Program-made: the position numbers and the translations under genes
The notes under the pieces: generated by a model
What the model saw: only the letters and a program-made list of their open reading frames with translations
What the model was told of the DNA's origin: nothing
Database searches by the model: none
IMG/VR virus record: IMGVR_UViG_3300021057_000274
Coordinates: 248,001 to 312,000 of that record
DNA from: a virus
DNA length: 64,000 nucleotides
Strand: one strand, 5' to 3'
In this document: positions 636 through 60,645 of the stretch, piece by piece
Layout of the letters: each line of letters opens with the position of its first letter
Numbering within the stretch: the first letter of the stretch is position 1

Positions 636-952
636 GTGTGCACCGGGCCCTTCATGCAGTGCATGAGCTCATGACCGAGCGTCTCGACGCGACGGTGGTC
701 ATCGAAGCCCTTCGGCTCGAGGATGTAGATTCGGCAGACGTTTGAGGCTGGAGTTTGGAGCGCGCCGCCCTTGGAGCAACCGCGAAGCCCTTGCGCCTGG
801 TGGAGAACGTCGGTCGGACAGTGCTTGCGCAGCTCCTCTTCTGTCTTCACCATCGTCGTGATGACGTACATGCCGCCGCTCTCGCCCTGGGGCGGAGCCT
901 GATCACAGCTCATGAGGAGAGCCAGGGTCGGAAGGAGGAGAAGCTTTCTCAT
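632..952 (-). CDS. Putative lipoprotein with HExxH metallopeptidase-like motif
   Basis: The start chosen is the ATG at 952, which overlaps the stop of the upstream gene as ATGA; a TTG lies two codons earlier. The N-terminus is a lipoprotein signal peptide (MRKLLLLPTLALLMSC, lipobox LMSC). The mature part is about 90 residues with four more cysteines and a C-terminal GHELMHC, an HExxH zinc-protease signature. No third metal ligand is obvious in so short a protein, so activity is uncertain. It is the middle gene of the minus-strand late operon. It may act in the periplasm during lysis or entry. Confidence 0.6.
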   Translation of the reverse strand: MRKLLLLPTLALLMSCDQAPPQGESGGMYVITTMVKTEEELRKHCPTDVLHQAQGLRGCSKGGALQTPASNVCRIYILEPKGFDDHRRVETLGHELMHCMKGPVHT

Positions 953-2193
953 AGCCAACCGTACGTCTCGTAGTTGCCCTCGATGCGCTCGGGGACGATT
1001 GCTCCGCCCTTCATGGTAAGGTGGACCACGAGAGCGGTCGGCGGAAAATCGGTAGTCATCTTGGCATGGAGAAACTTGCCCTTCTCGCCCCCGGTGAGAC
1101 CCTTCTTCGTAGCTTCGGCCTCATACTCGTCATACTTGAGAGAAGCCTTCTTTCGCAGCTCCTTATAAGCTGCGGAGGCGCGATCGGCGTTGTACTCGAT
1201 CTTCGGCACTTCCCACGTGCGGTCGTTCTTGCCAGCGACCTTCTTCTTGAGCTCGTCGACGAAGATGCGAGCGTTGCCGATGTTGTAGACCATCTCGCCT
1301 AGACGAATCTTGTCGAGATAACCTTCTGACATGATCAGCTTGAGGAGCTCCTCGGGGCTATCCCCGCCAGGAGCCTTCGAGGACTTGAACTTGTCGAGGC
1401 GGGTCTTGATGTCTTGCGAAAGCTTGTCAGACCACGCTCTCTGGAGAGATTCAAAGTCTTGATACTTGCCTCCACCGACGCTGATCCTGTTACCCTTGAG
1501 GTTAGAGGTCTTCTTGTTCGACATGTCGGCGCCCTTGCGCCCCTCAGCGCGCTCGTCACGCTTTTGAGCGCGCTTTTTGTCAGCCATGACCGTCATGGAG
1601 CGAACATCTGCGTTCTCCTTGCGGGCAACCGTCAAGATCGCCTTGAAGAGCTTGCGGATCATCGCGACCGCGGTGATCGAGCTGACACCGTCTAGGAGGC
1701 GCTTCATCGTGAAGCCCTGATCCTCGTAGTCACGTCCGAGCTGGCCCGTGAGCTCACGGTACTCTTCCTCGGTAAAGACTCCCTTACCCTTCTCGCCCTT
1801 CTTGAAGAGCTCCGGCTCGGCGATCAGAGAGTAGACCTCAGCGTCACGTTGCTTACCGAACCCCCTGCGACCCTCCTTGATGACGGCGAGCACCTGGTCC
1901 TTGTTGTACTTGACAACGAGAGCGACCGCGCTCGGATTTTCCGTCAGGTTACGAAGCATCTCGTTAGGGTTGCCCTCAACGTTGATGACGACCTCTGAGT
2001 CTTGACCTAGCTCGTCACGAACGGAGGCGACTCGCTTTTCGCTCGAGTACGGAGTCCGCTTGCGGAGCATGCGGAGAAACGTTTTGTTCAGGACGTTGAG
2101 CTTGCCGAGCCCCTCGTAGAGCTCATAGTCGAGATCCTCTAGGGCGTCAAGGTTGCCGTTGATTTGGAGAAGCTCTACGAGAAGTTGGGTCAT
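949..2193 (-). CDS. Large protein of unknown function, probable internal head protein
   Basis: I place the start at the internal ATG (2193) rather than at 2220, because AGAGGATTTTC precedes it and a late-promoter box (2219-2227) overlaps the longer start. The N-terminus MTQLLVELLQING resembles the leucine- and acid-rich peptides of the other late accessory proteins here. The body (about 414 residues) is rich in Lys and Glu. It has a basic stretch around residues 200-235 and no enzyme motif that I recognise. It heads a three-gene operon with the lipoprotein and membrane protein. Confidence 0.6.
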   Translation of the reverse strand: MTQLLVELLQINGNLDALEDLDYELYEGLGKLNVLNKTFLRMLRKRTPYSSEKRVASVRDELGQDSEVVINVEGNPNEMLRNLTENPSAVALVVKYNKDQVLAVIKEGRRGFGKQRDAEVYSLIAEPELFKKGEKGKGVFTEEEYRELTGQLGRDYEDQGFTMKRLLDGVSSITAVAMIRKLFKAILTVARKENADVRSMTVMADKKRAQKRDERAEGRKGADMSNKKTSNLKGNRISVGGGKYQDFESLQRAWSDKLSQDIKTRLDKFKSSKAPGGDSPEELLKLIMSEGYLDKIRLGEMVYNIGNARIFVDELKKKVAGKNDRTWEVPKIEYNADRASAAYKELRKKASLKYDEYEAEATKKGLTGGEKGKFLHAKMTTDFPPTALVVHLTMKGGAIVPERIEGNYETYGWL

Positions 2194-2218
2194 GAAAATC
2201 CTCTGCTTGTGGATGACC

Positions 2219-2227
2219 ATATTTATG
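2219..2227 (-). promoter_or_regulatory. T4-type late promoter box (CATAAATAT)
   Basis: On the minus strand this reads CATAAATAT, close to the T4 late promoter TATAAATA. The expected start of transcription falls about 20 bases before the ATG at 2193, fitting the minus operon 2193-309. It forms a divergent pair with the plus-strand box at 2259. Confidence 0.6.
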
Positions 2228-2258
2228 TTTCACTTCAACAAGCTATTGCTAAAGACCG

Positions 2259-2266
2259 CTAAATAA
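2259..2266 (+). promoter_or_regulatory. Late promoter box (CTAAATAA)
   Basis: CTAAATAA is followed by tCTACC and then AGAGGAAC and the GTG start at 2286. It is one of a recurrent TAAATA set found in front of virion genes in this window. Confidence 0.6.
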
Positions 2267-2285
2267 TCTACCAGAGGAACTACAT

Positions 2286-3788
2286 GTGACATCTAGCGCC
2301 GACCTGATCAACGCACTACAGACCGAGGGAGCCCAGGTCTCGTTGAGCTTCACGAGATTGACGCCGACCACCGGAAAGCTGACCTGGACGCTTCCAGAGA
2401 CGCTGAAAGCTTATGACGGAATCTTGATCGTCAGCCACGTCGCTGAGATCAACCCCTCAAACTATCCGACCAACGGAGTCAAGTACACCGCGTCAGCCAA
2501 CTTGCTGACGCCAGCCGACTCGATCGGAAACGCACGCGTGGTCGCCGCGATCTACGGTGACAAGTCAACGAGCTCGGTCGACTTGACGGGGCTAGACTCC
2601 GGATCGGTCTATTACTTCGCTGGCTTCGCGGTCTCCAACGTTCGGTCATATCACCTCCCGGGGATCCGGTCTTACGGAGAGTCGCTCTCGGACGAGATCT
2701 ACGCAGGTGACATGCACAAGAGCTACGGCCCGCCTGCTAACCCGGTGGTCGGCGCGGTCTACTTTGATCGCGATCAGAAGCTCGTCTTCGTTTGGGACGG
2801 CTCAGCCTGGTTGCCGACCTCCGCCCACACCGTGATCACCGGGCAGTTTGACCCGGTGAGTCCGTTCACGGGGCTCCCTGAGGACTACCCGGCGCTGGGG
2901 GATTTTTACTTCAACACTACCCAGCAGATGCTCAAGGTTTGGAACGGCTCGGCGTGGCTTTCTGCTGAGTCGACCCAGGGCTCACCGAACTATGAGAAGC
3001 AAGGGGTAGGGACGACTGGCCGCGGATCAGCTCGAGTCAACATGATCGACATCCTCAAGCACCAGCTGGGTTACCCGAAGGTCTGCGTCGAGCTCACCGA
3101 CAGGCACTTCCAGATCGCGATCGACAACGCCCTCCAAGAGATTCGTCGGCGAACCGACTCGGCGTACAACAAGCAGTACTTCTTCATGAAGATGCACAAG
3201 AACCAGGGCATCTATTACTTGAACGACCCCTCGATCGGTACTGACAAGATCGTTGACGTTCTCAGGATTCACCGGCTCAACATGCTAGGCCTGGTCAACT
3301 TCGCGCCAGACAACATCTACGCGCAGCAGTTTCTCAACCAGTTCTTCGCGCCTGGCGTGCAATATGACCTCGTGTCGATTCACCTGATTCACTCGATGTC
3401 GGAGCTGTTCGGCCAGCTCTTCGCGGGTGAGGTCGCGTACAACTGGCGAGAAGCCTCCCGGCAGCTGTTCGTCCATCGCAACTTCGCGACCGACGAGAAG
3501 GTGATCGTTGAGACCTCCTGCGAGAAGCTCGAGGAGGAGATCCTGGTGGATCGCTGGATGCAGCAGTGGGTGCAGCAGTGGGCCGAGGCCGAGCTCATGA
3601 TGATGCTCTCTCACATCCGAGGCAAGTACGCGACGTTGCCAGGACCGGGAGGTGGCTTGTCGCTGAACGCGGCGGATCTTCGCTCCGAGGGACAGCGTTT
3701 GCAAGAGGATTGCGTGCAGCAGATCGCTGACATGCTAGTGGGTCAGCAGGGCCCTGACGGTTGGTACATTCCCATGGCGATCGGATAA
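2286..3788 (+). CDS. Neck protein, gp13-like, with extra N-terminal domains
   Basis: 500 residues from a GTG start with the ribosome site AGAGGAAC. T4 gp13 is about 309 residues, and the C-terminal half here (about residues 250-500) has the expected neck features: VNMIDILKHQLGYP, AIDNALQEIRRR, and a YYLNDP..DKIVDVLRIHR segment. The N-terminal half is extra. Residues about 15-130 look like a fibronectin-III-type beta domain. Residues 150-230 contain two copies of a short motif (FVWDGSAWLP and KVWNGSAWLS) seen in phage fibre and surface proteins. Position before gp14/gp15-like genes supports a head-tail connector role. The gp13 assignment rests on synteny plus these motifs. Confidence 0.6.
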   Translation: MTSSADLINALQTEGAQVSLSFTRLTPTTGKLTWTLPETLKAYDGILIVSHVAEINPSNYPTNGVKYTASANLLTPADSIGNARVVAAIYGDKSTSSVDLTGLDSGSVYYFAGFAVSNVRSYHLPGIRSYGESLSDEIYAGDMHKSYGPPANPVVGAVYFDRDQKLVFVWDGSAWLPTSAHTVITGQFDPVSPFTGLPEDYPALGDFYFNTTQQMLKVWNGSAWLSAESTQGSPNYEKQGVGTTGRGSARVNMIDILKHQLGYPKVCVELTDRHFQIAIDNALQEIRRRTDSAYNKQYFFMKMHKNQGIYYLNDPSIGTDKIVDVLRIHRLNMLGLVNFAPDNIYAQQFLNQFFAPGVQYDLVSIHLIHSMSELFGQLFAGEVAYNWREASRQLFVHRNFATDEKVIVETSCEKLEEEILVDRWMQQWVQQWAEAELMMMLSHIRGKYATLPGPGGGLSLNAADLRSEGQRLQEDCVQQIADMLVGQQGPDGWYIPMAIG

Positions 3789-3789
3789 C

Positions 3790-4416
3790 ATGAAGCTACA
3801 AGACATCCTAGAAGCGGCAGATGGCCGCATGCGTTTTAAGTATCGTGGCTTCGAGGTCTCGTTCTCCGAGGACGAGGATAACTTTTGGTGGATCAACTAC
3901 GAGCCGAACCTCCCATCGGAGTTTGACAAAAACAAGGTCTCCCACTGGCAAGACGGTGAGGAGAAGGCCAAGAAGGCGATCGACGCGTTTCTCGACTCGG
4001 GCGGTGACATCTCCAAGCTCAAGAAGACGAAGGTCGTCAAGCTGGGAGAGGGAGAGGACAAGTCAAGACACGAGCTCGAGTTGACCGCTGAAGAAGTGAA
4101 GCGCACGGTTCAGGGAGTCGCCAAGCTAACGATCAACGCGTGCCGGGAGGCTGTCGTCAATGACTACGAGGACGGTGATGAGTACTTCGAGACGGTGCCG
4201 TCGATCAAGCTCTCGTACGACTTTCACTACAAGAAGGGCGGCAAGGAGTATCACGAGGGTGAGATGACGGTCCACGTCTTCAGGCACCCGACCACTGGCT
4301 GGTACATCATCCGCGACGTCTACAGCGGCACGAGAGACATCGAGGTGGAGACCAAGGCCGAAGCTCTCCGAGAGCTCAAGAAGTACGTGTCGTCCTCTAA
4401 GCCGCGAGACCTCTGA
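3790..4416 (+). CDS. Probable internal head protein with capsid-targeting N-terminus
   Basis: The 208-residue product begins MKLQDILEAADG. This matches the pattern M-K-L-x-(E/D)-(L/I)-L-(x)-E-(A/G) shared by about 20 proteins in this window and resembling the T4 capsid-targeting sequence; cleavage by a gp21-type protease would be expected after ILE. The rest is acidic/basic mixed with aromatic-rich beta-like segments (around residues 20-40 and 130-190) and no known catalytic motif. It starts one base after the neck gene ends and ends on the ATG of the next gene, so it is co-transcribed with late genes. Confidence 0.6.
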   Translation: MKLQDILEAADGRMRFKYRGFEVSFSEDEDNFWWINYEPNLPSEFDKNKVSHWQDGEEKAKKAIDAFLDSGGDISKLKKTKVVKLGEGEDKSRHELELTAEEVKRTVQGVAKLTINACREAVVNDYEDGDEYFETVPSIKLSYDFHYKKGGKEYHEGEMTVHVFRHPTTGWYIIRDVYSGTRDIEVETKAEALRELKKYVSSSKPRDL

Positions 4417-5357
4417 TGAAGCTAGACGAGCTATTGCTTGAGGGTGCTGGAGACCAGCCCAAGCTAAACTGGGGGAAGCTCCTTGATCTCATCAAGGACT
4501 GGGTGATCGATTGGATCAAGAAGCACAACGCGAACATTCCGATCACTCTCGGGCCAGACGGTCGGAAGCTCAAGCTCCATGACCTTCTCAAGGACACCGA
4601 TGAAGTTCACCCGTCATTTAGCGATCACGACGTCAATCGCGCTTGGGAGCGAGTCAGTGAGCATGGCCCCGGCCCCTTCTACGACGCGATCGAAAATTGC
4701 GTCGGAGAGCTGGGAGGAAATGTATATGACCACTACGTGAACCTCACGGCTGACGCTGCACGGCGGCTAAGGGTGCCGTATGACGAGATCAGCGAGCACA
4801 CAGTTAAGATCAAGTATCCGAAGCACTACGACATTAAAGAGACAGAGATCAAGCAGATGATCTGGAAGCTCTCGCCAGACATCCACCACTTCTTGAGAAG
4901 GATGGAGGAGGAGATCAAAGTCGAGACCAAGAAGAAGGCGAAGGAGTACGATGCTAAGCTTAAGACCGAGGCCGACGGCGTTTCGGCGGAGGAGCACAAG
5001 CGCTTCGTCGACTTCATCAGAAATAACTTCGACAATGAGATGACAGATTTCATCAAGTGGGTCAATGTGCAGAGGGAAAAGGGCAGGCTCGGTGATCCCA
5101 AGTGGATTAGGTTCTTGGCATGGATGCCGAAGTCCGCGATCGAAAAGCTCTCGAAGCCCGCTGACTTTGCTCCATATTTCAAGAAGGTAGCGGCCAAGAA
5201 GTTGAAGGACGAGCTCCGCAACGCGTTCGTTGAGTCTGCACGCTTTCAAAAGGATGAAAAGCTTCTCGAGTTTATGCTAAACAGGCACCTCTGGAACGCG
5301 GCGTGGCCTGAGATCGAGAGCTTCCTCAAGGGATGGATCGAGAAGAACGGTGGCTGA
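4416..5357 (+). CDS. Probable internal head protein with capsid-targeting N-terminus
   Basis: 313 residues beginning MKLDELLLEGAG, one of the clearest examples of the shared N-terminal signal, with a predicted gp21-type cleavage site LLLE/G. The remainder is helix-rich and highly charged (for example KVETKKKAKEYDAKLK around residue 170). I recognise no enzyme family. Its start overlaps the preceding stop (TGATG) and its 3' end overlaps the GTG of the gp14-like gene by 8 bases, so it sits inside the late neck operon. Confidence 0.6.
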   Translation: MKLDELLLEGAGDQPKLNWGKLLDLIKDWVIDWIKKHNANIPITLGPDGRKLKLHDLLKDTDEVHPSFSDHDVNRAWERVSEHGPGPFYDAIENCVGELGGNVYDHYVNLTADAARRLRVPYDEISEHTVKIKYPKHYDIKETEIKQMIWKLSPDIHHFLRRMEEEIKVETKKKAKEYDAKLKTEADGVSAEEHKRFVDFIRNNFDNEMTDFIKWVNVQREKGRLGDPKWIRFLAWMPKSAIEKLSKPADFAPYFKKVAAKKLKDELRNAFVESARFQKDEKLLEFMLNRHLWNAAWPEIESFLKGWIEKNGG

Positions 5358-6921
5358 GAACCCGAAGCTTACCTTCGCCCACGACGGCGCCAGGGGCGGG
5401 AAGTACGTCGTTCCGAAGCAACAGCTCGGAACTCTCGATTACTCGACCTCTGACTGCGCGACCGAGGAGGCGAAGTACCTCGCGGAGCTGATGGCCGAAT
5501 CGCTCAACATTGCGGCTGGACCGGTCAACATCTTTCCGCTCCTCGGCCTCTACAGCCAAGGCTCGACGATCGACCAGGCGGTCAACGGTTTTCCGATCTC
5601 GTCAGGCACTCCGTCAGGGTATGACGCCGCAGCTGCCTTCAACGTCAACGACGACTCGTGGCGGTCGGTTCAGCAAGGCGCCGCGGTCCTGACCGCGCCG
5701 GCCTACATCGGCTACAACTTCGGCACCAAGAAGGTCTGGGACGGCTCTCAGGAGCGCTACGTTCCAGCCGAGCCTGTTCGCAAGAAGATCGGCACGCTCA
5801 AGATTCGCCAGGGCGTCGACTCGCGTAACCGAGCGACCCAGGTGCGCGTCGAGGCGTCGGATAACGGCACGACCTGGCATCGTGTCGACGTCGTCACGCT
5901 CCCCGACTCATCGGCGCTTGAGACCGTTGGCATCCAGGCCGTCGCCGAGTACGCCCAGTGGCGATTCATCCCGACGTTCTTCAACGGCGTCGCCAGCAAC
6001 TTCCAGTGGGAGGTGGTCGAGATGCACCTGCTCGAGGAGACCCAGGTGACGCTCAACGCGATCGAGGACTACATCTTCCTCGAGAACCGCGATCGCTCGT
6101 ACGCCCAGTCATCGACGATGATCAAGTGCTCGTACGACCTGCTTGACGTGCAATCCGAGCTGGCGAAGTTCGGCATCAACCTGCCTCAGACCTACATCTT
6201 CACTTGTGCGTTCTCGACCATGGTCGGCGCGCTCGGCCGGCCGGTCGTCGTCGGTGACATCGTCGAGCTTCCGGGAGAGGTGCAGTACGACGCGAACCTT
6301 CGTCCCGTGCGGAAGTGGCTCGAGGTGACCGACGCAGGCTGGAGCACCGAGGGCTATACCCCTGACTGGAAGCCTCAGCTTTACAGGTTCTACGCGCAGC
6401 CGGTCAACCCGTCAGCCGAGCACCAGGACATCCTCGGCTTGCCGGGCGTCACCAACTCTAACCAGTCTGACGACAGCATCCTCAAGGACGGCTTCCTCTC
6501 TGACGACCTCGGCGTCAAGGTTAGCCAGGCCGTTAGCCAGGCGTCAAAGGAGGCCTCGCCGCAGCTCGGTCAAGACTCCTCAGGGATCGCCAGCGGAAAG
6601 CCCTTGGTCGGCAAGCCAGGTGAGTATGACGGGAATGACCTCTACGCCGAGGACGCGATTCCGCCTGACAACGCGACCTACACGATCGGCGACACCTTGC
6701 CGCTCCCGAGCACGATCTCCGACGGGCACTATCACCGCCAGACCTACGCTCTGGTGCCGCAGCAGATTCGTCCGCCTGACCGACTGCTCCAGTGGAACGC
6801 GACGACTGCTCGCTGGATCGTGAGAGAGACCAACATCAGGTCCGAGCCGACCTCGCACAAGAGGACGATCGCGAAGATGATCGCGTCTGACTCTAAGCAC
6901 TTACCTGACCAGAAGCTGTGA
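5350..6921 (+). CDS. Neck protein, gp14-like candidate, with inserted discoidin-like domain
   Basis: 523 residues from a GTG start inside the previous gene. Position between the gp13-like and gp15 genes matches T4 gene 14 (256 residues), and the C-terminal part has a RPVVVGDIVELPGEV segment comparable to the gp14 region that enters a 'GDLIYFP' strand. Residues about 145-235 (TLKIRQG..., VRVEASDNGTTW, EYAQWRFI, WEVVEMHLLE) look like an F5/8-type discoidin domain, which normally binds carbohydrate. This insertion accounts for much of the extra length. The gp14 call is moderate because overall similarity is low. Confidence 0.5.
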   Translation: MAENPKLTFAHDGARGGKYVVPKQQLGTLDYSTSDCATEEAKYLAELMAESLNIAAGPVNIFPLLGLYSQGSTIDQAVNGFPISSGTPSGYDAAAAFNVNDDSWRSVQQGAAVLTAPAYIGYNFGTKKVWDGSQERYVPAEPVRKKIGTLKIRQGVDSRNRATQVRVEASDNGTTWHRVDVVTLPDSSALETVGIQAVAEYAQWRFIPTFFNGVASNFQWEVVEMHLLEETQVTLNAIEDYIFLENRDRSYAQSSTMIKCSYDLLDVQSELAKFGINLPQTYIFTCAFSTMVGALGRPVVVGDIVELPGEVQYDANLRPVRKWLEVTDAGWSTEGYTPDWKPQLYRFYAQPVNPSAEHQDILGLPGVTNSNQSDDSILKDGFLSDDLGVKVSQAVSQASKEASPQLGQDSSGIASGKPLVGKPGEYDGNDLYAEDAIPPDNATYTIGDTLPLPSTISDGHYHRQTYALVPQQIRPPDRLLQWNATTARWIVRETNIRSEPTSHKRTIAKMIASDSKHLPDQKL

Positions 6922-8183
6922 AGTTAGCCGATCTCCTCCTCGAAAAGAGCAGCTACGTGATCGATAAAAAAGATCTCGTTTTCCTGAGCCACGCTCTCGA
7001 CAAGTACGAGAAGGGAGCGTCTGACGAGTGCTTCTTGAACGCGCTAGTGCAAGCGATCAAAATCGCGACCGACGGACAGGTCAAGCTCTTGATGAGTGAC
7101 CTCGAAGAGATTCTCGCCAATGATCACGGAATAGTTCCGACCTTGCATTACGTAGATGTCAAGAAGAAGCTAAAGAAGAACGTCGTCACGACTCATGACA
7201 TGAACAAGGTTCACCTTGATCTTAAGCTTAAAACTGTCAAGCACCCCTCGGAGGTCATTCCCTTTCTGAAGCAGGGAATTCCGGTGATCATCTCGATCAA
7301 CATTAATGATGCATTTTGGGACAGCTACGGCGCGGTAGTGGGTTGGAGAACTGAATTAATGATCAGGTCAACGCTCTCTAAGTACGGGGACACGCTGCCG
7401 AAGTCATACTACAAGAAGCTCAAGGCTGGCATCATCCCTTACCCGACCGTCGAGATGATGGATAGAGTTACCAAGGCTGGAACAGACATCTTTCACGCGA
7501 TCTTATGCGTCGGGTATGACGCAAAGGACAAAGCGTTCATCTGTCGTGACAATCTCACGAAGGAACATAGGGTCAAGTTCAGCGGGCTCTTTAAGGTCGA
7601 GGAGCAGTTCTTCTGGGACACCGAGCTCAAGAAGCGAAACCTGGCGGTAGTGCGTCACGGGCTGGCGGTCGACGTCGTGGTCAGCCACGCGGAGGGCCCG
7701 TCTGATCGCGTCAAGGAGCGGCTTGAAAATGTTCGCGCGAAATACGATGACGTGTTTCCGCCGTTCTTCATCGAGCTCACTAGACACATGGTGAAACTCT
7801 ATAGGGATGAGGTGAGAGAGAAGCTCGTTAAGGCTGACTGGTCGAACATCAAGGATGAGATTCACAATTATCTGAATGATAACTCCGCTGGAGAGGCCAG
7901 ATACCAGCTCGCCTCAAAGGTCACGAAGCACTTCAACGTCGAAGGCTTTGAAATGGAGGTTCGGAAAAATATCGACCGTCACCTTTACGCGATGCGCGAT
8001 GCTATCGAATTTGCGCGTAAAGAACGGAGCTTTTTCAATCGAATCTTAACAGATATTGACGCGTACTTGGACAAGCTTGACGTTAACGCTCTAGTTCAAC
8101 ACGTACTGGATCGGCCTAAGCCAGAGACTAAGCCAGAATCCAAGCCTAGCAGCGAACCGCAGATCTTTGACAGCTCAACTTAA
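6918..8183 (+). CDS. Papain-like cysteine protease-type protein with capsid-targeting N-terminus
   Basis: 421 residues, GTG start overlapping the previous stop. The N-terminus MKLADLLLEKS carries the shared packaging-type signal (site LLLE/K). Behind it is a papain/C39-like arrangement: a candidate catalytic Cys38 in SDECFLNALVQA, then a segment IPVIISININD, then His193 in FHAILCVGYD and DN at 211-212 in ICRDNLT. The C-terminal 180 residues are helical and end in a Pro/Glu-rich tail. I infer a protease or peptide-bond enzyme carried in the head and injected with DNA; substrates are unknown. Confidence 0.55.
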   Translation: MKLADLLLEKSSYVIDKKDLVFLSHALDKYEKGASDECFLNALVQAIKIATDGQVKLLMSDLEEILANDHGIVPTLHYVDVKKKLKKNVVTTHDMNKVHLDLKLKTVKHPSEVIPFLKQGIPVIISININDAFWDSYGAVVGWRTELMIRSTLSKYGDTLPKSYYKKLKAGIIPYPTVEMMDRVTKAGTDIFHAILCVGYDAKDKAFICRDNLTKEHRVKFSGLFKVEEQFFWDTELKKRNLAVVRHGLAVDVVVSHAEGPSDRVKERLENVRAKYDDVFPPFFIELTRHMVKLYRDEVREKLVKADWSNIKDEIHNYLNDNSAGEARYQLASKVTKHFNVEGFEMEVRKNIDRHLYAMRDAIEFARKERSFFNRILTDIDAYLDKLDVNALVQHVLDRPKPETKPESKPSSEPQIFDSST

Positions 8184-8203: not shown

Positions 8204-9103
8204 ATGGATAAAATCCAATCACGATTCCAGCTCTTCCTGAATGAAGGCGTGATCAAGCTCCCTCAGAAGCTGTTGAAGGACGCGACAGACCACTTCAATT
8301 ACTGGGCGCTGGCTCACGTCTTGCACCACGGGCTCAAGAAAGCTGGGAGAGATCGCGACGAGCAGCAATTTGTCCTCGCAGCGATCAAGAAGGCTGCCTT
8401 CGACGCCGGGGTCAAGATGCCGACCTCGACCGACATCGGGAAGGCAGGTCGGAACTCGACGCTCGTTCGTCGCTTCCAGCTGGGTGATCTGCCGGCGTCT
8501 TACCTCAAGAGCCTCACCCGCGTGAGCGGCGCGGAGGAGAGGGACGTCAAGCGACTCTTCGGCAGCATCGACATCAAGTTTAAGATCTTCTTCGTCCCCC
8601 ACTCTAAGACGAGAATCGGTCCGTACTGGTCGGCTGACGACCAAGAGATCGGAGTCTCGACCGTCCACGCGCACCTCTCCTCCAAGGACTTTAAGAACTT
8701 CTCGGATTACTCGCCTGCGACGATCTCGAAGCGGATGCACGTAGCTCTAGGGGACATCGAGCACGAGCTCACCCACGGAATCCAAGAGCTTGTGCTTCAA
8801 TTTCTGCACAAGGAGCAGAGCGACCCTAAGGGAGACTCCGCGCTTCACGGCAAGGGCGAGACCGAGTACTACTTGCTAGCTACCGAGTTCGACCCGTGGA
8901 TCAAGACCTCGGTGCGCCGCTTTAGAACGGTGGTGCAACACCACAAGGCGGAGCGCAACCTCACCAAGCAGAAGGAGCTCTTTCAGAGCTACTCTCAAGG
9001 TGACGGTAGCGACTTCTTCGCCGTTCTCAAGAAGCACGATCCGGAGCGCTGGAAGAAGGCGGTGCGGATCGCGTGGTCTAGCTACGAGGACAAGTACCTC
9101 TAA
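8204..9103 (+). CDS. HELTH zinc metalloprotease-type protein with capsid-targeting N-terminus
   Basis: 299 residues. The N-terminus MDKIQSRFQLFLNEG ends in FLNE/G, very like the FIAE/A cleavage site of T4 internal proteins. The centre holds an HExxH motif, DIEHELTHGIQ (His187, Glu188, His191). It is preceded by a beta-rich segment around residue 125-155, as in zincin-like peptidases. Glu residues downstream (for example GETEYY at about residue 216) could supply the third ligand. It lies between the cysteine-protease-like gene and gp15. A packaged protease acting on host proteins is the simplest inference. Confidence 0.55.
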   Translation: MDKIQSRFQLFLNEGVIKLPQKLLKDATDHFNYWALAHVLHHGLKKAGRDRDEQQFVLAAIKKAAFDAGVKMPTSTDIGKAGRNSTLVRRFQLGDLPASYLKSLTRVSGAEERDVKRLFGSIDIKFKIFFVPHSKTRIGPYWSADDQEIGVSTVHAHLSSKDFKNFSDYSPATISKRMHVALGDIEHELTHGIQELVLQFLHKEQSDPKGDSALHGKGETEYYLLATEFDPWIKTSVRRFRTVVQHHKAERNLTKQKELFQSYSQGDGSDFFAVLKKHDPERWKKAVRIAWSSYEDKYL

Positions 9104-9942: not shown

Positions 9943-10539
9943 ATGGGCACTCTCTCACAAATCGGCATTCCGGGCATCGGGAACACGATCCTTCACCCGA
10001 GGCAGAAGAACCGTTGGCGGGTCATCTTCAGCGGACTCGGCGGTCTTCTGGGAGCAAGCTCGACGGCTCCTAACGACCTCTCGCTCCAGCTGACCACCTT
10101 CACGCGTCCGAGCCTCTCGTACGAGGAGGTCCAGCTTGACCGCTACAACTCGCGCGTCTACGTCGCTGGCAAGCACACGTTTGACCCGTGCACCCTGACT
10201 GTTGAGGATGACATCACCAACCGCGCGGTGAGCGCGATCCAGAACCAGCTCGAGGCGCAGCAGCGCTTGATCGGCGCGACGGGCCCGTGGCTCAACACTG
10301 AAGCGACCGCGTTCGGCTACAAGTTCGGCATGATCTTCGAGGGCCTGGACGGCAACGAGACGGTCACCGAGACCTGGAAGTACGAGGGCTGCTTCATCCA
10401 AGCTGCTGACTTTGACCAGGGCGACTACGCGACCGGCGAGAAGTTCCTCATCACCGTCACCGTTCGTTACGACCACGTTCGTCATGACCTCGCCCCATCC
10501 GTCACCGGATCTGCCGTCGGCGGGTTGGTAAACGCGTAA
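9943..10539 (+). CDS. Tail tube protein, gp19-like
   Basis: 198 residues (T4 gp19 is 163). The tube-fold signature is visible: HPRQKNRWRVIFSGLG near the start, LQLTTFTRPSLSYEEVQLDRYNS, YVAGKHTFDPCTLTVEDDITN, and a C-terminal WKYEGCFIQAADF strand. gp19-type subunits polymerise into the rigid inner tail tube. It has its own late promoter and ribosome site, as expected for an abundant virion protein. Two further proteins in the window (13328 and 43514) have the same fold, so this is one of three paralogues. Confidence 0.75.
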   Translation: MGTLSQIGIPGIGNTILHPRQKNRWRVIFSGLGGLLGASSTAPNDLSLQLTTFTRPSLSYEEVQLDRYNSRVYVAGKHTFDPCTLTVEDDITNRAVSAIQNQLEAQQRLIGATGPWLNTEATAFGYKFGMIFEGLDGNETVTETWKYEGCFIQAADFDQGDYATGEKFLITVTVRYDHVRHDLAPSVTGSAVGGLVNA

Positions 10540-10555: not shown

Positions 10556-10936
10556 ATGGACCTCCTTCGGGAGCTTACCCAGATCCTCGAGGGTCTTGAG
10601 GATCATAAAAAGTATCCGCTCGTTGATCGGGTCAACGCCGACCTGGTCAACGAGTTTATGCACAAGAAGCCTGCCCGCTGGGCTGACCTTGACAGCTCTG
10701 CCAAGAAGATTCCGCTTGAGCGAGTCAAGGCGATCTTCGGCGGAGATCTTCGCCGTCGCTCCTTTACGATCAAGAGCCTCTGGGGTGAGCGCCCCGAGAG
10801 CCCCTCCTCAGAATTTGTCGACTCTTTTAGAAATTACAAGGAGCCGATCGTGGTCGTAGATGACAAAAAGCACCCCAAGTACGTGATTCACTCCGGTGGC
10901 TTCAATTATCCGCGCTACATGACGGCCGTCAAGTGA
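10556..10936 (+). CDS. Probable internal head protein, MDLLREL type
   Basis: 126 residues beginning MDLLRELTQILEGLED, a variant of the shared N-terminal signal that recurs at 59744 (MDLLRELINVSE) and 46368 (MELLRELIEIMS). A gp21-type site ILE/G follows. The body is basic with no motif that I recognise. It follows the tail tube gene with ribosome site GGGAGG and overlaps the next start. Confidence 0.5.
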   Translation: MDLLRELTQILEGLEDHKKYPLVDRVNADLVNEFMHKKPARWADLDSSAKKIPLERVKAIFGGDLRRRSFTIKSLWGERPESPSSEFVDSFRNYKEPIVVVDDKKHPKYVIHSGGFNYPRYMTAVK

Positions 10937-11886
10937 AACTTCTTGAAGAGCTCGTCCTCCTCCTAGAAGAGATCAGCGATCCCTACGTGGTTACGCTGGG
11001 GCGCCCTAAGAACTGGCGCCCGTTCAAGGATACGCCAGCAGGGGCGAACCTCGATGAAGATCCGCACACTTACTTGATGATCAAGACCAAGCAAACCGCT
11101 GGCATTCCCATGGCGGTGATCCGCGATCTGGGACTTAGTTACACAGACGGTGACGGCAAGATCCGGGGGAAGGCGCGCACTCTAGGGGTCGTGAAGGTGT
11201 CAACTCTAGAGGGCAAGGAAGCTGGCAAAAAGAGCCGGTCTGTCGGGTTCTACAGTTGGAAGCCTACCGGATTAGTTTTCTGGTTCAAGAATAAGTCTGA
11301 GAGCGAAGCTAAGGAAGCCATCGAGCAGCTGTTAGAGCCGGTGCTTAAGCGACAGAATAAGTACGTGGCCGCTCGAGAGAGGGCGAGAGAGACCGCGCCA
11401 CGGCGTCGAAAGGAAGCGGCAAAATATTATTCAGAGCGGCGCAAGAAGGAGCTTGAAGAGCTCAAGCAGAAATACGGAGCCGACATCGTGGAGCGAGTAA
11501 AGGTCAAGTCGATGTCCCACGAGGGTGATGACGGGTACCAATGGGCGATGTTCGTCGACGGCCGTCGAGTTCGATCAGGGATGAAGCAAGCCGAAGCTAG
11601 AGCCGCGCAACGCTCACAGTGGAGCTATCTGAAGCGGCTAAAGGAAATGACCCCCGAGGAGCGACTTAGGGAAATCAACGCCGCCCGCGGCCTGCAAGCT
11701 TACTTCATGCTTCAGGCTATGGAGGACGACGTTGATTTGCATCTCGCCGTGATCAAGCAGCACGCGAAAGAGCTAGTTGACGCGAACGACTTAGCCACTG
11801 ATACGATCGAGAACGCAAAGGTTAATGACGAACAGGCGAGGAAGATCTATAACGACCTCATCGCTAAGCTTAGGAAGAAGACATGA
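10933..11886 (+). CDS. Probable internal head protein with central coiled coil
   Basis: 317 residues from a GTG overlapping the previous stop. The N-terminus MKLLEELVLLLEEISD fits the packaging-type signal (LLLE/E). Residues about 130-190 form a strongly charged coiled coil (KYYSERRKKELEELKQKYG). After it a small segment (YQWAMFVDGRRVRSGMKQAEA) looks like a compact beta-hairpin DNA- or protein-binding unit. No enzyme family is recognised. Neighbours on both sides carry similar N-termini. Confidence 0.5.
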   Translation: MKLLEELVLLLEEISDPYVVTLGRPKNWRPFKDTPAGANLDEDPHTYLMIKTKQTAGIPMAVIRDLGLSYTDGDGKIRGKARTLGVVKVSTLEGKEAGKKSRSVGFYSWKPTGLVFWFKNKSESEAKEAIEQLLEPVLKRQNKYVAARERARETAPRRRKEAAKYYSERRKKELEELKQKYGADIVERVKVKSMSHEGDDGYQWAMFVDGRRVRSGMKQAEARAAQRSQWSYLKRLKEMTPEERLREINAARGLQAYFMLQAMEDDVDLHLAVIKQHAKELVDANDLATDTIENAKVNDEQARKIYNDLIAKLRKKT

Positions 11887-12224
11887 TCATCGTAGAACTG
11901 CTCGCCATCCTCGAGGCTAAGATCGATCCGAAGAAGTGGCCTGAGCTCAAGGCCTACTGGGACAAGTACGGCCACGGCACCAAGTTCGAAGACCTCGACG
12001 GTATCAAGGTACGAAGTGACGGCAACTACGTCGTCGTGCGCTGGAAGGAGGAGGGCGGCAAGGTAGGACTCGCCGACCTAGCGAAGTACACCGGAGGTCC
12101 GTGGGAGATGCAGAACGACAGCTTCGACGAGATCACCGAGGGTGACTGGCGGAAGCTGAAGATCGTTCCAGACTGCGACTGGTTCACGATTCCCGGCCAC
12201 CCCGACTACGACGAGGAAGAGTAA
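11883..12224 (+). CDS. Small acidic protein, probable internal head protein
   Basis: 113 residues beginning MIIVELLAILEAK (possible cleavage ILE/A), start overlapping the previous stop. The body is acidic with many Trp/Tyr/Asp residues (NYVVVRWKEEGGKVGLADLA, then a DYDEEE tail). Function unknown. Confidence 0.5.
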   Translation: MIIVELLAILEAKIDPKKWPELKAYWDKYGHGTKFEDLDGIKVRSDGNYVVVRWKEEGGKVGLADLAKYTGGPWEMQNDSFDEITEGDWRKLKIVPDCDWFTIPGHPDYDEEE

Positions 12225-46172: not shown

Positions 46173-46368
46173 GAGCGGGGTGCTTGGGCTTGCGACGAAA
46201 CTGGGTCTGATCGCGAAAAGATCGGCCGCTAGGGATCGGCGGGCGGCGAGAGCCTGGCGTGCGCTTGCAGTTCGACGAGTGCTTCTCCGTCGTCGTCTTG
46301 CAATCGGGGCAAGGTTGGATTCTCAATTTCCCGCTCATGATCTCGATCAGCTCTCTCAGCAATTCCAT
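46159..46368 (-). CDS. Small zinc-motif protein, MELLREL type
   Basis: 69 residues beginning MELLRELIEIMSG, then CPDCKTTTEKHSSNC (three cysteines and a histidine, possible zinc knuckle) and a basic Arg/Pro-rich tail. The N-terminus resembles MDLLREL at 10556 and 59744. Ribosome site TAGGAGAAG and a late promoter precede it. Likely a DNA-binding internal head protein. Confidence 0.5.
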   Translation of the reverse strand: MELLRELIEIMSGKLRIQPCPDCKTTTEKHSSNCKRTPGSRRPPIPSGRSFRDQTQFRRKPKHPAREDL

Positions 46369-50252: not shown

Positions 50253-50597
50253 ATGAAGTTAAACGAGCTCCAGCGAAAATTCTATCACGTGACGTTCGCC
50301 CAGAACGTGTCAAGCATCTTACGGCATGGGTTGGGTGGCAAGAGAGCTACCCAGCGCTGGAGCTTCTCGAATGGAAGGGTTTGTCTAGCCGATTCGATTG
50401 AGAAGGCTAAGAGATATGCGAACTCGGTCGGACAGCCAGATGAGTGGGATGGAAAGTTCGTTGTTATAGAGGTCGAGATTCCAGATGAGTCGAAACTCAG
50501 CCAAGACTCGAACATCGACGGCAAGACCGCCGATGGATACTTTGAGTATGACGGCGTGATTCCTCCCTCACATCTCAAGGTGCACGACACTTACTAG
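50253..50597 (+). CDS. ADP-ribosyltransferase/KptA-like small protein with MKLNEL N-terminus
   Basis: 114 residues, ATG one base after nrdB. MKLNEL matches the shared N-terminal peptide, though the cleavage Glu is missing. FYHVTFAQNVSSILRHGLGGK (Tyr11-His12-Val-Thr14) followed by VCLADSIEKAKRYA and VVIEVEIPDESKL is the layout of small ADP-ribosyltransferase-fold proteins (KptA/DarT-like). Expected activity: ADP-ribosylation of protein, RNA or DNA. T4 Alt is a precedent for a packaged ADP-ribosyltransferase. Confidence 0.55.
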   Translation: MKLNELQRKFYHVTFAQNVSSILRHGLGGKRATQRWSFSNGRVCLADSIEKAKRYANSVGQPDEWDGKFVVIEVEIPDESKLSQDSNIDGKTADGYFEYDGVIPPSHLKVHDTY

Positions 50598-50626: not shown

Positions 50627-51025
50627 ATGAAGATCTCCGAGCTCTACGAGTCAAGGTGGATTGAGAGCCCCAGGCTTGACGTCTCTACTGAGGGTAACTC
50701 CAAGCGAGTCTTCTTCACCGCTAAGCTGAAGAAGGACCACCGTCGTGATTGGGACAAGGACGAGGTAGCTGTCGAGGCGACCGTTGACCTTGACAAGCCA
50801 GTCGCTCGCATCAACCAGATCAACGCGTGGATGTCACACCGTAGCCTCGGGCAAGAGCTTCTCTCGCACATCCTCTTTCACCTCAAGAAGAACGGCTATA
50901 AGAAGGTGACCGCTTACACCGAGCGGTTCAACTTCAATCCGCAATCCATGGTCAAGCGGCTCGGAGCTGTTGAGACAGGGAAGACCGAGCACGGCGTGAC
51001 CTGGGAGTGGGACCTTGAGGCTTGA
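50627..51025 (+). CDS. GNAT-like protein with capsid-targeting N-terminus
   Basis: 132 residues beginning MKISELYESRW, cleavage after LYE or YE predicted. The body has a GNAT look: EATVDLDKPVARINQI, HRSLGQELLSHILFHLKKNGYKKVTAYTERFN and MVKRLGAVETG, where LGQELL is the CoA-loop region. It may acetylate a host protein. Late promoter directly upstream; the next gene starts inside its end. Confidence 0.55.
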   Translation: MKISELYESRWIESPRLDVSTEGNSKRVFFTAKLKKDHRRDWDKDEVAVEATVDLDKPVARINQINAWMSHRSLGQELLSHILFHLKKNGYKKVTAYTERFNFNPQSMVKRLGAVETGKTEHGVTWEWDLEA

Positions 51026-52001
51026 TGAGATCTCGCAGCGCGCCAGCAGCTGGGAGGATCTGCCGTTCAGAGCTGCTACCGGTGAGGGGCCCTCTCTAGA
51101 GGACGTCGTTCCTGAGCGCGCCCCGAACGGCGATTTCATCTTCTACCACGGTACGTCTCTCACAACCGCCGAGAAGATCGTCAAGGACAAGATGATCATG
51201 CGAGACGACCTCGGTTACTCAGGGATAGGTACTACCCGCGGAGCCGTTAGCGTCTACGGCATCATGAAAGCTTCTAAGGAAAATCTCCGTCGCAGACTCA
51301 AGATGGTGCCAGGGATGATGCATGACGACCCAAAGGCTGAAAAGAGCGCGGTTCTTCGAGTGCGCATCTCCCGAGATTGGTTCAAGGCCCATCCAGATTC
51401 GGTCTCTAGAGAGACCGGAGGCTCTGGAAAGAACCAGTTCTTGATTCGCCCGCCGCGCGGAGAAAAGGGTGTGCCGCTAGAGCACGCTGAGATCGTACGG
51501 GCAGCTGGAGAGGAGCTGCGCGAGACGGTCAAGAGCCAGGACGTCGGAGTCTTCGTCACTTCTGCCTTCGAGAACGCGGGGATCAAGAACGTCAAGATCG
51601 TCGGGTCGCTGATGCGAAAGGGCAAGGGAAACGACATCGACGTCAAGGTCGACGCACCAGGGAGATTTGAGGCCGTCGAGTCAAGGGCCTTCAGCGTCGC
51701 TCACAAGCTGTCCAAGATGATCGGCGAGTACTCGAGAGGAAAGCATGATCGCGTCGACGTCTTCTTGAAGATGCAACCAGAGTGGGTCAATGACCGCGCG
51801 ACCGCTAAGCTGATCATCAGGCGGTACCTGGATGACCATGACGAAAACTTCCCGAACTACGGCGGATCTGACGGGATCTATCATGAGCCTGAGGTCGTGG
51901 ACATCAACAAGGTCAAGTACTTGATCATCTCCGTCGGCGGAGGGTGGATGATCCAACGTGGATATTGGCTCCATGAACCTGAAGATACGGTCAAGGGGTA
52001 A
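51015..52001 (+). CDS. ADP-ribosyltransferase-like plus nucleotidyltransferase-like fusion
   Basis: 328 residues, TTG start inside the previous gene; the N-terminus MRLDEISQRASS fits the shared family only loosely. FIFYHGTSLTTAEKIVKDKM (Tyr44-His45-Gly46-Thr47) is an ADP-ribosyltransferase-fold start and SGIGTTRGA follows. In the C-terminal half, IVGSLMRKGKGNDIDVKVD (Gly197-Ser198, Asp207, Asp209) is a nucleotidyltransferase-fold motif. Two toxin-like catalytic cores in one late protein suggests an injected effector. Both calls rest on motifs. Confidence 0.5.
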   Translation: MRLDEISQRASSWEDLPFRAATGEGPSLEDVVPERAPNGDFIFYHGTSLTTAEKIVKDKMIMRDDLGYSGIGTTRGAVSVYGIMKASKENLRRRLKMVPGMMHDDPKAEKSAVLRVRISRDWFKAHPDSVSRETGGSGKNQFLIRPPRGEKGVPLEHAEIVRAAGEELRETVKSQDVGVFVTSAFENAGIKNVKIVGSLMRKGKGNDIDVKVDAPGRFEAVESRAFSVAHKLSKMIGEYSRGKHDRVDVFLKMQPEWVNDRATAKLIIRRYLDDHDENFPNYGGSDGIYHEPEVVDINKVKYLIISVGGGWMIQRGYWLHEPEDTVKG

Positions 52002-52843: not shown

Positions 52844-53191
52844 CTAAGATTTTATCGCGTAGTTGATCTCGTGGTACGCGCGCTCAAGATTTTCAAGCGC
52901 TTCTGCGATCGTGTTATGGGTGTCGATGAGATAGCCCTTATAGTTGGACGGGGCATGATCGCCGTGCGCGATGCCGTTAGGCTTCTTGGGGAAGTCGGCT
53001 TCATGCCTCAGGCGATTCGCGATCTCACGATGCTTAGCAGCCTCCGTGAGAAGAGCCTTTTGATCACAGATCGTGGCGAGGGCTTTCGCGAGCCTGTCGT
53101 ACTCTTTGAAGCCCTCCATGTCACGTCCCTTTTTAGGTTTCGAGGGAATTCCCTTGGGCCAGGCTTCAACGAGAAAAGCTTTAAGTTTCAT
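52844..53191 (-). CDS. Probable internal head protein with capsid-targeting N-terminus
   Basis: The start is placed at the ATG at 53191, preceded by GAAAGGAAATCACC, rather than 16 codons upstream; this gives 115 residues beginning MKLKAFLVEAWPKG, with cleavage FLVE/A. Highly basic N-terminal part (SKPKKGRDMEGFKEY) and helical C-terminal part (AEALENLERAYHEINYA). No enzyme motif. It has a minus-strand late promoter. Confidence 0.6.
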   Translation of the reverse strand: MKLKAFLVEAWPKGIPSKPKKGRDMEGFKEYDRLAKALATICDQKALLTEAAKHREIANRLRHEADFPKKPNGIAHGDHAPSNYKGYLIDTHNTIAEALENLERAYHEINYAIKS

Positions 53192-53205
53192 GGTGATTTC
53201 CTTTC

Positions 53206-53218
53206 GTCTATTTACCGC
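53206..53218 (-). promoter_or_regulatory. Late promoter box, minus strand (GCGGTAAATAGAC)
   Basis: Minus-strand GCGGTAAATAGAC, 15 bases before the ATG at 53191. It supports the shorter start. Confidence 0.6.
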
Positions 53219-53388
53219 AAGTTCTTTCCTATAGCCCAACCATTAGCCAAATAAGCAGCCAATTCAATTATCACCGCCGAGGGCTTTTGGGATAATGTGA
53301 TGGCGCTCTTTGTAACCTTTGATCTTACGGGCTTTGGATCGATGACAGATCTCGAGATACCATTTTGTGTACTTATTATCTAAGAACA

Positions 53389-57835: not shown

Positions 57836-57884
57836 CGAGGAGAAGCAAAAGGGTTGCTTGCGTCCAGTCTGGAGGGACATGTGA
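57588..57884 (+). CDS. Hypothetical protein
   Basis: 98 residues starting with a strong CAGGAGGAAGG ribosome site at ATG 57588, well inside the previous frame. Helical, charged. The good ribosome site and normal composition mark it as real. Stop overlaps the following GTG. Confidence 0.6.
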   Translation: MLISREAIEAFLARPKPRMPAHMLETYLLELEARMRLNPSSYTRETEDGPALFNGNPDLSYPVISDTLLIIEILKKRYPDLTDEEKQKGCLRPVWRDM

Positions 57885-58087: not shown

Positions 58088-58106
58088 ACATTCTAAGGTA
58101 AAGGGC

Positions 58107-59068: not shown

Positions 59069-59093
59069 GATGTTTACTTTCTCGGCAGCTTGA

Positions 59094-59101
59094 TGTACAA
59101 T
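59094..59101 (+). promoter_or_regulatory. Extended -10 promoter (TGTACAAT)
   Basis: TGTACAAT ends 8 bases before an ATG at 59110 that opens only 17 codons (a leader peptide or nothing), and 36 bases before the phosphoesterase TTG. Confidence 0.5.
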
Positions 59102-59137
59102 AATCGGGCATGAATAACATTCCAAAAAGAAAAAAGA

Positions 59138-59728
59138 TTGATCCAAAAAGAAGAACAAGCTAACGATTGGTTTAGCTCCGACCCGCACTACCACCACTCT
59201 AAGATCATCCAGTATTGCAACAGACCGTACGCCTCCAAGCAGGAGATGAACGAAGCGCTGATCGCCAACTGGAACGCGGTTGTCAAGCCTCAGGATAACG
59301 CTTATTGCCTGGGCGACTTTGTCTTCGGTGACGAGCGAGACGCGATCAAGATCGTCAATCGGCTTAACGGTAACAAGCGTTGGATCCGAGGGAATCATGA
59401 CAGCAAGCTGTGGCGAAGCAAGGAGCTGCGCTCGCTCTTCTCGTGGACCGGTGACTACCTCGAGCTGAAGATCGCTGACCCCGACGCCGATCGCGGAATC
59501 CAGATGATCTGCTTGTTCCACTACCCGATGATCGTGTGGAACAAGTCACACCGCGGCTCGTGGCACCTGCATGGCCACTGCCACAACAAGCTCAAGTACC
59601 CGTTCGAGGCTCGCATCCTCGACGTCGGTGTCGACGGTCACGGATATCGCCCGATCTCATATCAGGAGGTCAAGGCGATCATGAGAAAGAAGAAGTTCAC
59701 CGCGGTAGACCATCACGTAGAGCTCTGA
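59138..59728 (+). CDS. Calcineurin-like metallophosphoesterase
   Basis: 196 residues from TTG. DWFSSDPHYHHSKII (D-x-H), LGDFVFGDE, RGNHDSK, LFHYPM and WHLHGHCH are the five metal-site motifs. It cleaves phosphoesters; small phage relatives may act on nucleotides or 2',3'-cyclic ends. An in-frame upstream start is blocked by TGA at 59111, but a single-base shift would fuse the 17-codon ATG frame at 59110 to this one. Confidence 0.85.
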   Translation: MIQKEEQANDWFSSDPHYHHSKIIQYCNRPYASKQEMNEALIANWNAVVKPQDNAYCLGDFVFGDERDAIKIVNRLNGNKRWIRGNHDSKLWRSKELRSLFSWTGDYLELKIADPDADRGIQMICLFHYPMIVWNKSHRGSWHLHGHCHNKLKYPFEARILDVGVDGHGYRPISYQEVKAIMRKKKFTAVDHHVEL

Positions 59729-59731
59729 GAT

Positions 59732-59743
59732 GTAAATAGGCTC
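59732..59743 (+). promoter_or_regulatory. Late promoter box (GTAAATAGGCTC)
   Basis: GTAAATAGGCTC abuts ATG 59744. It places the two internal-protein-type genes at 59744 and 60307 under late control inside an early-gene region. Confidence 0.65.
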
Positions 59744-60310
59744 ATGGATCTCCTCCGTGAACTTATCAACGTTTCAGAAGCTACAGAGAAAGAGCTGATC
59801 GACCAGTTTGAGGACTGGGACGACAAGCAGCTCAAGCAAGCCGCTGAGATGGGCAACGAGGAGGCCGGGCGTGAGCTGTCTCGACGCGCAAAGTTCGGCA
59901 CTAGAAACTACGACAAGCCGGGTCAAAAGCCCTTCATGGAGGCGACGATCGACGCCTTCAAGCAGATGACCGAGATTAAGTTTGATCCAGATCGCACCGA
60001 TCCGGCCGACATCTTCATCGAGATGCGCAAGATCATCGCTCAGGTGGCATATACCTTCCTGGTACACGAGAAACAGCAACACGACAAGCGCCAAGCGCAT
60101 GATGAGGACGAGGACAAGACCGAGTTCAACTTCTCGTTCGACGCGCTCGCCGACGAATGCCAAGACGTGTGGCGTCAAGTCAAGACCTTCGCGGATGACA
60201 GAATGAACAGCCACAGTGACTGGCTCGAGTACATCCATGACGGCACCTTCCTAGATCTTCCGAAGGATCCTCCGCTGTCAGGTTTTGCTGGAAAAAAGAA
60301 GTCCAAGTGA
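59744..60310 (+). CDS. Probable internal head protein, MDLLREL type
   Basis: 188 residues beginning MDLLRELINVSEATE, with a predicted cleavage VSE/A. Acidic, helix-rich, with histidine/glutamine-rich middle (HEKQQHDKRQAHDEDED). Late promoter directly upstream. No enzyme motif. Confidence 0.55.
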   Translation: MDLLRELINVSEATEKELIDQFEDWDDKQLKQAAEMGNEEAGRELSRRAKFGTRNYDKPGQKPFMEATIDAFKQMTEIKFDPDRTDPADIFIEMRKIIAQVAYTFLVHEKQQHDKRQAHDEDEDKTEFNFSFDALADECQDVWRQVKTFADDRMNSHSDWLEYIHDGTFLDLPKDPPLSGFAGKKKSK

Positions 60311-60645
60311 AGCTCAAGACGTTTCTAGCTGAGGGGAAGGGCAAGCTCACCGAGAGGGACGTCGGCCGAGACGCTGAGGTGATCTTCCGCATCACCACGA
60401 ACGCCGTGAAGTTCGACGACGACATCTATGGCTTCGGCTACTTTGGTAAGATCATCGAGGTCACTGACAAGCACGTAGTGTTCGAGGCGGAGCGCGCTGG
60501 TCAGTATACGGCTTACACCGCTCCTGGAAACGGCGTCGAGCTCAAGGGCAGTCACAAGATCAAGATCACGATGGATCTAGATAAGGCGAGTCGCGTTGAC
60601 GCGCATCCAGACGATGACTTCATCGCAATTCACTTTGCTGCTTAA
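60307..60645 (+). CDS. Probable internal head protein with capsid-targeting N-terminus
   Basis: 112 residues from GTG, beginning MKLKTFLAEGKGK. FLAE/G is almost identical in layout to the FIAE/A site of T4 internal proteins. The body (KIIEVTDKHVVFEAERAGQYTAYTAP) is beta-rich. It overlaps the preceding gene and is in the same late operon. Function unknown. Confidence 0.6.
   Translation: MKLKTFLAEGKGKLTERDVGRDAEVIFRITTNAVKFDDDIYGFGYFGKIIEVTDKHVVFEAERAGQYTAYTAPGNGVELKGSHKIKITMDLDKASRVDAHPDDDFIAIHFAA

Follow-up and report, generated by a model that had tools for sequence, protein, structure and literature searches.

A shared N-terminal peptide resembling the T4 capsid-targeting propeptide in many late proteins of a jumbo phage

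Why should about 20 mostly unrelated proteins, encoded among the late genes of one virus, begin with nearly the same short peptide? The question is raised by a stretch of 64,000 nucleotides (the window) corresponding to bases 248001–312000 of the 389,331-base virus record IMGVR_UViG_3300021057_000274, the source of which is a T4-superfamily jumbo phage distantly related to XacN1 and RAS14. The original prediction, made from the window alone, listed 21 proteins with starts like MKLxELLxE and equated this start with the capsid-targeting sequence and gp21 cleavage site of T4. The analyses reported here make it very probable that this start is a capsid-targeting propeptide of the T4 type, on proteins that would be packaged, cut and injected.

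The shared N-terminus and its carriers

Genes were called by codon usage in 184 kb, comprising the window and six 20-kb stretches, and gave 234 proteins of at least 60 amino acids (aa); these are our own calls, whose start positions can be off. The pattern M[KR][LIF]xx[LIFV][LFYV]x(0–2)E is matched at residue 1 by 14 of the 234 proteins, compared with a mean of 0.11 when residues 2–20 are shuffled and 0.57 when columns are permuted, and is found after none of 854 internal methionines. Every coordinate listed in the original prediction turned out to be an in-frame start, and its central observation, that unrelated proteins of this phage begin alike over a short peptide (about 10–20 residues), is borne out. 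In a positive control, a pattern of T4 length matched only the two MKTYQEFIAE proteins among 252 T4 open reading frames (ORFs). Over the whole genome, a strict nine-codon DNA pattern occurs eight times forward and not once reversed, and a relaxed six-codon pattern 31 times forward versus four times reversed. When a variable gap was allowed in a looser DNA pattern, control matches equalled real matches in several phages, and this pattern was dropped. Leu3 of the tag is spelled by six codons, and the adjacent positions are equally free; because the codons vary, selection acts on the peptide and conservation at the DNA level is ruled out.

The tag set continues beyond the window, both in pattern matches and in the sampled stretches. 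We estimate 35–40 carriers genome-wide, about 20 in the window and about 17–20 outside, some of them possibly chance matches. T4 carries about four such tagged proteins, and the expectation of a far larger set thus holds. The listed genes, named below by the position of their start codon, were sorted into three tiers (a slash marks the predicted cut).

Tier 1, clear internal-protein (IP) type
3790..4416 (+), tagged protein, 208 aa, MKLQDILE/AADG, IP-type N-terminus
4416..5357 (+), tagged protein, 313 aa, MKLDELLLE/GAG, strict match in protein and DNA
6918..8183 (+), tagged protein, 421 aa, MKLADLLLE/KSS, strict match
8204..9103 (+), tagged HExxH protein, 299 aa, ...FQLFLNE/GVIKLP, zincin-type metallopeptidase by motif; tier placed by orthologues
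16798..17991 (+), tagged protein, 397 aa, MKFAAFLQLNE/GLSD; tier placed by orthologue starts
17988..18575 (+), tagged HxxxH-family protein, 195 aa, MKLSSLLE/APLVDV
45351..46172 (-), tagged HxxxH-family protein, 273 aa, MKISELLTE/APLEDV, strict match in DNA and protein
50627..51025 (+), tagged GNAT-like protein, 132 aa, MKISELYE/SRW, own late-type promoter motif (TAAATA 12 nt upstream)
52844..53191 (-), tagged protein, 115 aa, MKLKAFLVE/AWPK, strict match in DNA and protein, own late-type promoter motif
60307..60645 (+), tagged protein, 112 aa, MKLKTFLAE/GKGK, strict match in DNA and protein

Tier 2, Alt type, M[DE]LL.EL or similar
949..2193 (-), Alt-type tagged protein, 414 aa, MTQLLVELLQING, orthologues MKLLQELLTISD, TAAATA upstream
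10556..10936 (+), Alt-type tagged protein, 126 aa, MDLLRELTQILE/GLED
10933..11886 (+), Alt-type tagged protein, 317 aa, MKLLEELVLLLEE
11883..12224 (+), tagged protein, 113 aa, MIIVELLAILE/AKID
12306..13328 (+), tagged protein, 340 aa, MALELLLELLDSTSE, TAAATA motif 52 nt upstream
59744..60310 (+), Alt-type tagged protein, 188 aa, MDLLRELINVSE/ATEK, TAAATA 11 nt upstream

Tier 3, like first residues, no L-x-E end
16094..16801 (+), T7 gp0.7-like, protein-kinase-like protein, 235 aa, MRLNELVGVKK, targeting half only, phrog_15752 E=6e-7
18575..19489 (+), protein with MNLLEILNK start and ParB/SerK-like C-terminal part, 304 aa, NF053625 E=4e-4
50253..50597 (+), PARP/ADP-ribosyltransferase (ART)-like protein with MKLNEL start, 114 aa, no LxE, PF00644 E=0.004, phrog_11974
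51015..52001 (+), protein with MRLDEI start, 328 aa, FYHGTS (ART-like) and GS..DIDV (nucleotidyltransferase-like) motifs by eye

Doubtful
46159..46368 (-), short ORF, 69 aa, MELLRELIEIMSG, overlaps the next gene and is uncalled by codon usage

The list of 21 therefore stands as regards the shared start, but four members (16094, 50253, 51015 and 18575) have no cleavage site, and the ORF at 46368(-) is doubtful, although its start fits the tier 2 pattern, and is probably no real gene. The match of 50253, 51015 and 16094 had already been called loose, in agreement with their similar first residues and missing L-x-E end; the tier 3 proteins may reach their target uncut, or they may be mis-assigned. 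Two starts are internal ATGs of longer ORFs, namely 2193(-) in ORF 949–2220 and 53191(-) in ORF 52844–53239. The former is probably the true start, because its orthologues align from about that ATG and start with MKLLQELL.

Correspondence with T4 and conservation of the junction

The T4 IP start MKTYQEFIAE and the Alt start MELITELF were both read from the T4 sequence. When the IP start (M K T Y Q E F I A E/A) is aligned with the tag (M K - L x E L L x E/A, G or S), one residue is missing from the latter and all other positions are paired, among them the acidic residue that precedes the two hydrophobic ones. The smaller subgroup starting with M[DE]LL[RL]EL resembles Alt. In T4 IPIII, targeting depends on residues 4 and 7 and processing on residues 8 and 10, and gp21 cleaves after L/I-x-E (PMC9026906); the tag fits both the published gp21 motif and these IPIII residues. 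For T4, a fusion experiment has addressed whether the peptide suffices to carry a foreign protein into heads (PMC9026906). Hydrophobic targeting residues combined with an L/I-x-E junction are found in tier 1 and in the 8204 orthologues, whereas tier 3 has no L-x-E end. The proposed identity with the T4 site is upheld by this position-by-position alignment and by an L-x-E junction that is kept in orthologues.

A gp21 homologue, on the presence of which the original prediction depended, was found 11 kb upstream of the window (PF03420 E=1e-29; phrog_207). It belongs to a group comprising portal, gp21-type protease, scaffold candidate and gp23-type capsid gene (phrog_138) at 233–241 kb, directly upstream of the window, so that protease, scaffold candidate and capsid protein are all encoded in this genome. 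Homologues of the scaffold candidate in XacN1 and RAS14 sit immediately before the capsid gene. Among named phages, the capsid protein is closest to those of Xanthomonas phage XacN1 (52%) and Stenotrophomonas phages CM1/RAS14 (49%), followed by GAP32, CBB and PA5oct (about 40%); megablast of window positions 1–25000 against phages gave no match. In PA5oct, a second protein annotated as head maturation protease (gp212, L022:40350–41021) lies far from the head cluster.

The comparison of orthologues provides the strongest evidence for a propeptide. Among the first 20 residues of the 8204 family, only F8, L12, E14, I17 and P20 are kept in seven phage sequences, and the segment before the Glu differs in sequence and length. 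Family members start with MDKIQSRFQLFLNE/GVIKLP, MGSTFALYLNE/GLIKLP, MTFKPFLAE/GLIKLP and, in L045, MKSFKEFLIE/GLIKLP; the named phages XacN1 and RAS14 have MKTSFRQFLAE/SKIQIP and MTQSFKQFLIE/ARIAAP, respectively. A kept junction behind a varying upstream stretch is the pattern expected of a cleaved propeptide, and the XacN1 form closely approaches the T4 tag. The proteins at 50627, 16798, 12306 and L004:10216 (ParB-like) behave like 8204, the body being conserved and the propeptide remade, usually with the junction Glu. Thus, the orthologues of 12306 (body identity about 50%) start with MKLQELLE/AA and MKICELFE/EK, those of 16798 with MKFKAYMLTE/ATT, MHIFKELLQE/SQT and MKLAILLE/SLD, and that of 50627 in L053 with MKFKIFLE/DAP. 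In tier 3, the start of 16094 is conserved in four phage sequences as M[KR]LxELxG[VI]KK, together with D178, S181, N183 and D195, and that of 18575 in orthologues as MNLYEILDK and MNLQELLNT.

The comparison with relatives covered 32 loci, each around a protease, terminase or tube gene; the N-terminal pattern is matched by 23 of the 361 proteins there and by none of 1569 internal methionines. For 18 of these 23, the proteins sampled from this phage include no counterpart. Whole genomes of relatives contain 30 matches to the pattern versus five to its reverse (G001) and 28 versus four (SCTP-2). The structural genes match those of XacN1/RAS14 at 31–52%, whereas the tagged genes have no match in the head–tail regions of these phages; the tagged set thus turns over fast. 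In Salicola phage SCTP-2 (L068, 203000–216000), a run of tagged genes, all annotated as hypothetical, adjoins the terminase gene, and three of them bear YHGT/HHGT/YHNT motifs. A diverged paralogous trio consists of 17988–18575, 45351–46172(-) and L008:7885–8769(-), which share the motif W..xHxFxH and have strongly conserved N-termini of the form MK[LI]..LL.EAP[LI].D; a search of viral contigs for relatives of 45351 found none.

Bodies, late expression and virion evidence

Sequence motifs and family matches make the bodies behind the tag look directed at the host. Among the classes represented are zincin, kinase-like, GNAT, ART-like and ParB-like proteins; several of these assignments are weakly based. 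The 8204 family has an HExxH motif with a downstream Glu, and H187, E188, H191 and E228 are invariant in the seven phage sequences. The protein matches phrog_22033 (virion structural), and its AlphaFold2 (AF2) model has a well-folded body behind residues 1–16, for which the predicted local distance difference test (pLDDT) score is <50. A Foldseek search with this model yielded no significant match, and the best one, to a minimal metallopeptidase at E=2.4, was not counted. In Mimasvirus XbC2 (L070, XbC2_318), the zincin lies within a much longer protein annotated as structural, with LDEA just before the domain; it may represent the same effector in polyvalent form. The L053 orthologue of the GNAT-like 50627 matches RimI (E=3e-5). 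The YHGTS motif of 51015 is kept in L067; the AF2 model of 51015 (pLDDT 40) is too poor to use. Weak assignments are those of 50253 as PARP/ART-like, which aligned with a PARP-annotated Vibrio phage protein, and of 6918..8183 as a possible C39-like cysteine peptidase (PF13529 E=9e-4, below cut-off). A family search with the 3790..4416 protein found no match, and neither PADLOC nor PDB sequence searches with 8204, the kinase-like 16094 and two ART candidates gave anything useful. Outside the window, the motifs LYRS, FTTS and EHE in G25120 correspond, by eye, to the R-S-E signature of Alt-type ARTs; G375815 has a YHGTS motif, G2674 a nucleotidyltransferase-like sequence (by eye) and L004:16875 a phosphoribosyltransferase domain (PF00156 3e-10). 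The gene L003:9493–10269(-) encodes a nicotinamide mononucleotide adenylyltransferase-type nucleotidyltransferase, with the start MKLTEL, no L-x-E and the domain from near residue 33; it possibly represents packaged nicotinamide adenine dinucleotide metabolism.

The window also carries genes for head-tail adaptor, tail sheath stabiliser, tail tube and terminase, among which the tagged genes are interleaved:

2286..3788 (+), head-tail adaptor, phrog_211 E=1e-61
9943..10539 (+), tail tube protein, phrog_4542 E=1e-40
19479..21023 (+), large terminase, phrog_36964 E=4e-73

Both 9943–10539 and 13328–14551 belong to the tail-tube family phrog_4542, with four tagged genes in between. In the window and L003–L008, TAAATA (the T4-like late element being NTAAATA) lies no more than 60 nt upstream of 25 genes in the sense orientation and of three in the antisense orientation, a distribution that fits T4-type late transcription. 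It precedes the portal, protease and tube genes and several tagged genes, including the isolated 53191(-), L007:10218 and G25120; most other tagged genes are inside late operons.

The record of PA5oct, a distant relative, annotates some proteins as detected by electrospray ionization tandem mass spectrometry (ESI-MS/MS), and those so marked include gp333 (MKINDIITE/G) and gp246 (MKIKDILVE/S), both listed as structural, and gp254 (MRLDEIQ). The position of gp333, between portal and protease, is occupied by proteins with ...KFSEYLAE/S in XacN1 and SFREHLAE/N in RAS14. The PA5oct protein in the scaffold position starts with MTVKFEHILNE and is not marked as detected.

Interpretation and comparison with known systems

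On the T4 model, the tagged proteins would be made late in infection together with head and tail parts, and a hydrophobic face (positions 3, 6 and 7, equivalent to Y4, F7 and I8 of the T4 IP) would dock them on the prohead scaffold core. The gp21-type serine protease would then cut behind the L-x-E Glu, so that the mature protein is released in the head before DNA packaging, and at the next infection the proteins would enter the host with the DNA, as proposed from T4 Alt and IPI, and act before phage gene expression. Several points weigh against this account. L-x-E is missing from 4 of the 21 listed proteins (tier 3), and the residue after the cut extends beyond Ala and Gly to Lys, Arg, Ser and Asp. 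The PA5oct record does not state the sample behind its ESI-MS/MS notes, which also stand on metabolic enzymes such as ribonucleotide reductase, some of them possibly contaminants; for these reasons the record is support, not proof. Late promoters directly before tagged genes are only modestly enriched (p=0.04), because most of these genes lie within operons. Docking, cleavage, packaging, injection and host-directed activity in this phage are all drawn by analogy with T4.

The peptide might target the prohead scaffold on carriers that are head-assembly or DNA-condensing parts and not injected effectors, as could be argued from the influence of T4 IPIII on head form (PMC9026906), from the several tagged proteins with no recognisable enzyme domain and from the location of some tagged genes inside tail and packaging operons. 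We regard this as unlikely, since many bodies resemble injected phage-effector enzymes (HExxH, kinase-like, GNAT, ART-like, phosphoribosyltransferase) and turnover of the tagged set is rapid from one relative to the next, whereas the structural genes are kept. A short amphipathic N-terminal helix could also bind a membrane or an import receptor, which would make the motif another localisation signal, e.g. for membrane association or phage-nucleus import. This is very improbable for a motif that ends in the L-x-E site of the prohead-protease type encoded here, with a junction conserved in orthologues, that is shared by head proteins and that matches IP and Alt of T4, a phage with no nucleus. 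It is scarcely conceivable that the likeness reflects some property of translation starts at the DNA or mRNA level, or recent duplication of one gene: all copies do lie at start codons and one paralogous trio exists (17988, 45351 and L008:7885), but free codon exchange and mostly unrelated bodies already contradict this explanation, and most genes of the same genome, judged by the 234 sampled proteins, lack the tag.

The T4-type propeptide being the preferred explanation, the tag set is a large, lineage-wide expansion of a known mechanism. On balance we favour the view that this T4-superfamily jumbo lineage injects an arsenal of some 30–40 separate small effectors bearing one short cleavable tag, to which new bodies are repeatedly recruited, so that the injected proteome could be read from the genome. 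No open-access paper describing such a set in jumbo phages was found, and the capsid-targeting sequence, named in 15 papers, is absent from the jumbo-phage reviews searched; the search covered no subscription papers. Most jumbo-phage genes have no known function. If our view is correct, the tag would give for each phage a short, testable list of first-strike anti-defence and takeover proteins, including some that lack a recognisable fold, and the internal-protein system of T4, most familiar from the T-even phages, would appear to be a general and expandable delivery platform.

The system resembles T4 IPI, IPII and IPIII in the order of charged and hydrophobic residues, the position of the cleaved Glu, the gp21-type protease and the fast-changing bodies behind a conserved tag. 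It differs in that the tag is one residue shorter (MKL, not MKTY) and has tens of carriers instead of three, many of which look enzymatic. The M[DE]LLxEL subtype and the tagged ART-like proteins (G25120, G375815, 50253 and 51015) recall the ADP-ribosyltransferase Alt; however, the ART-like proteins here bear the MKL-type tag, and none is closely homologous to Alt. Polyvalent proteins and MuF-fused effectors contain zincin, ART and GNAT domains and are thought to be injected (Iyer et al. 2017, PMC5512222). The domain classes overlap with those found here, where, in contrast, each domain forms a small protein with an individual tag instead of being part of one long polypeptide. In phiKZ and SPN3US, as predicted here, head proteins have propeptides cut by a T4-related protease, but the propeptides of their ejection proteins are long, several exceeding 100 residues (PMC5694885), whereas those of the present phage are about 8–25 residues.

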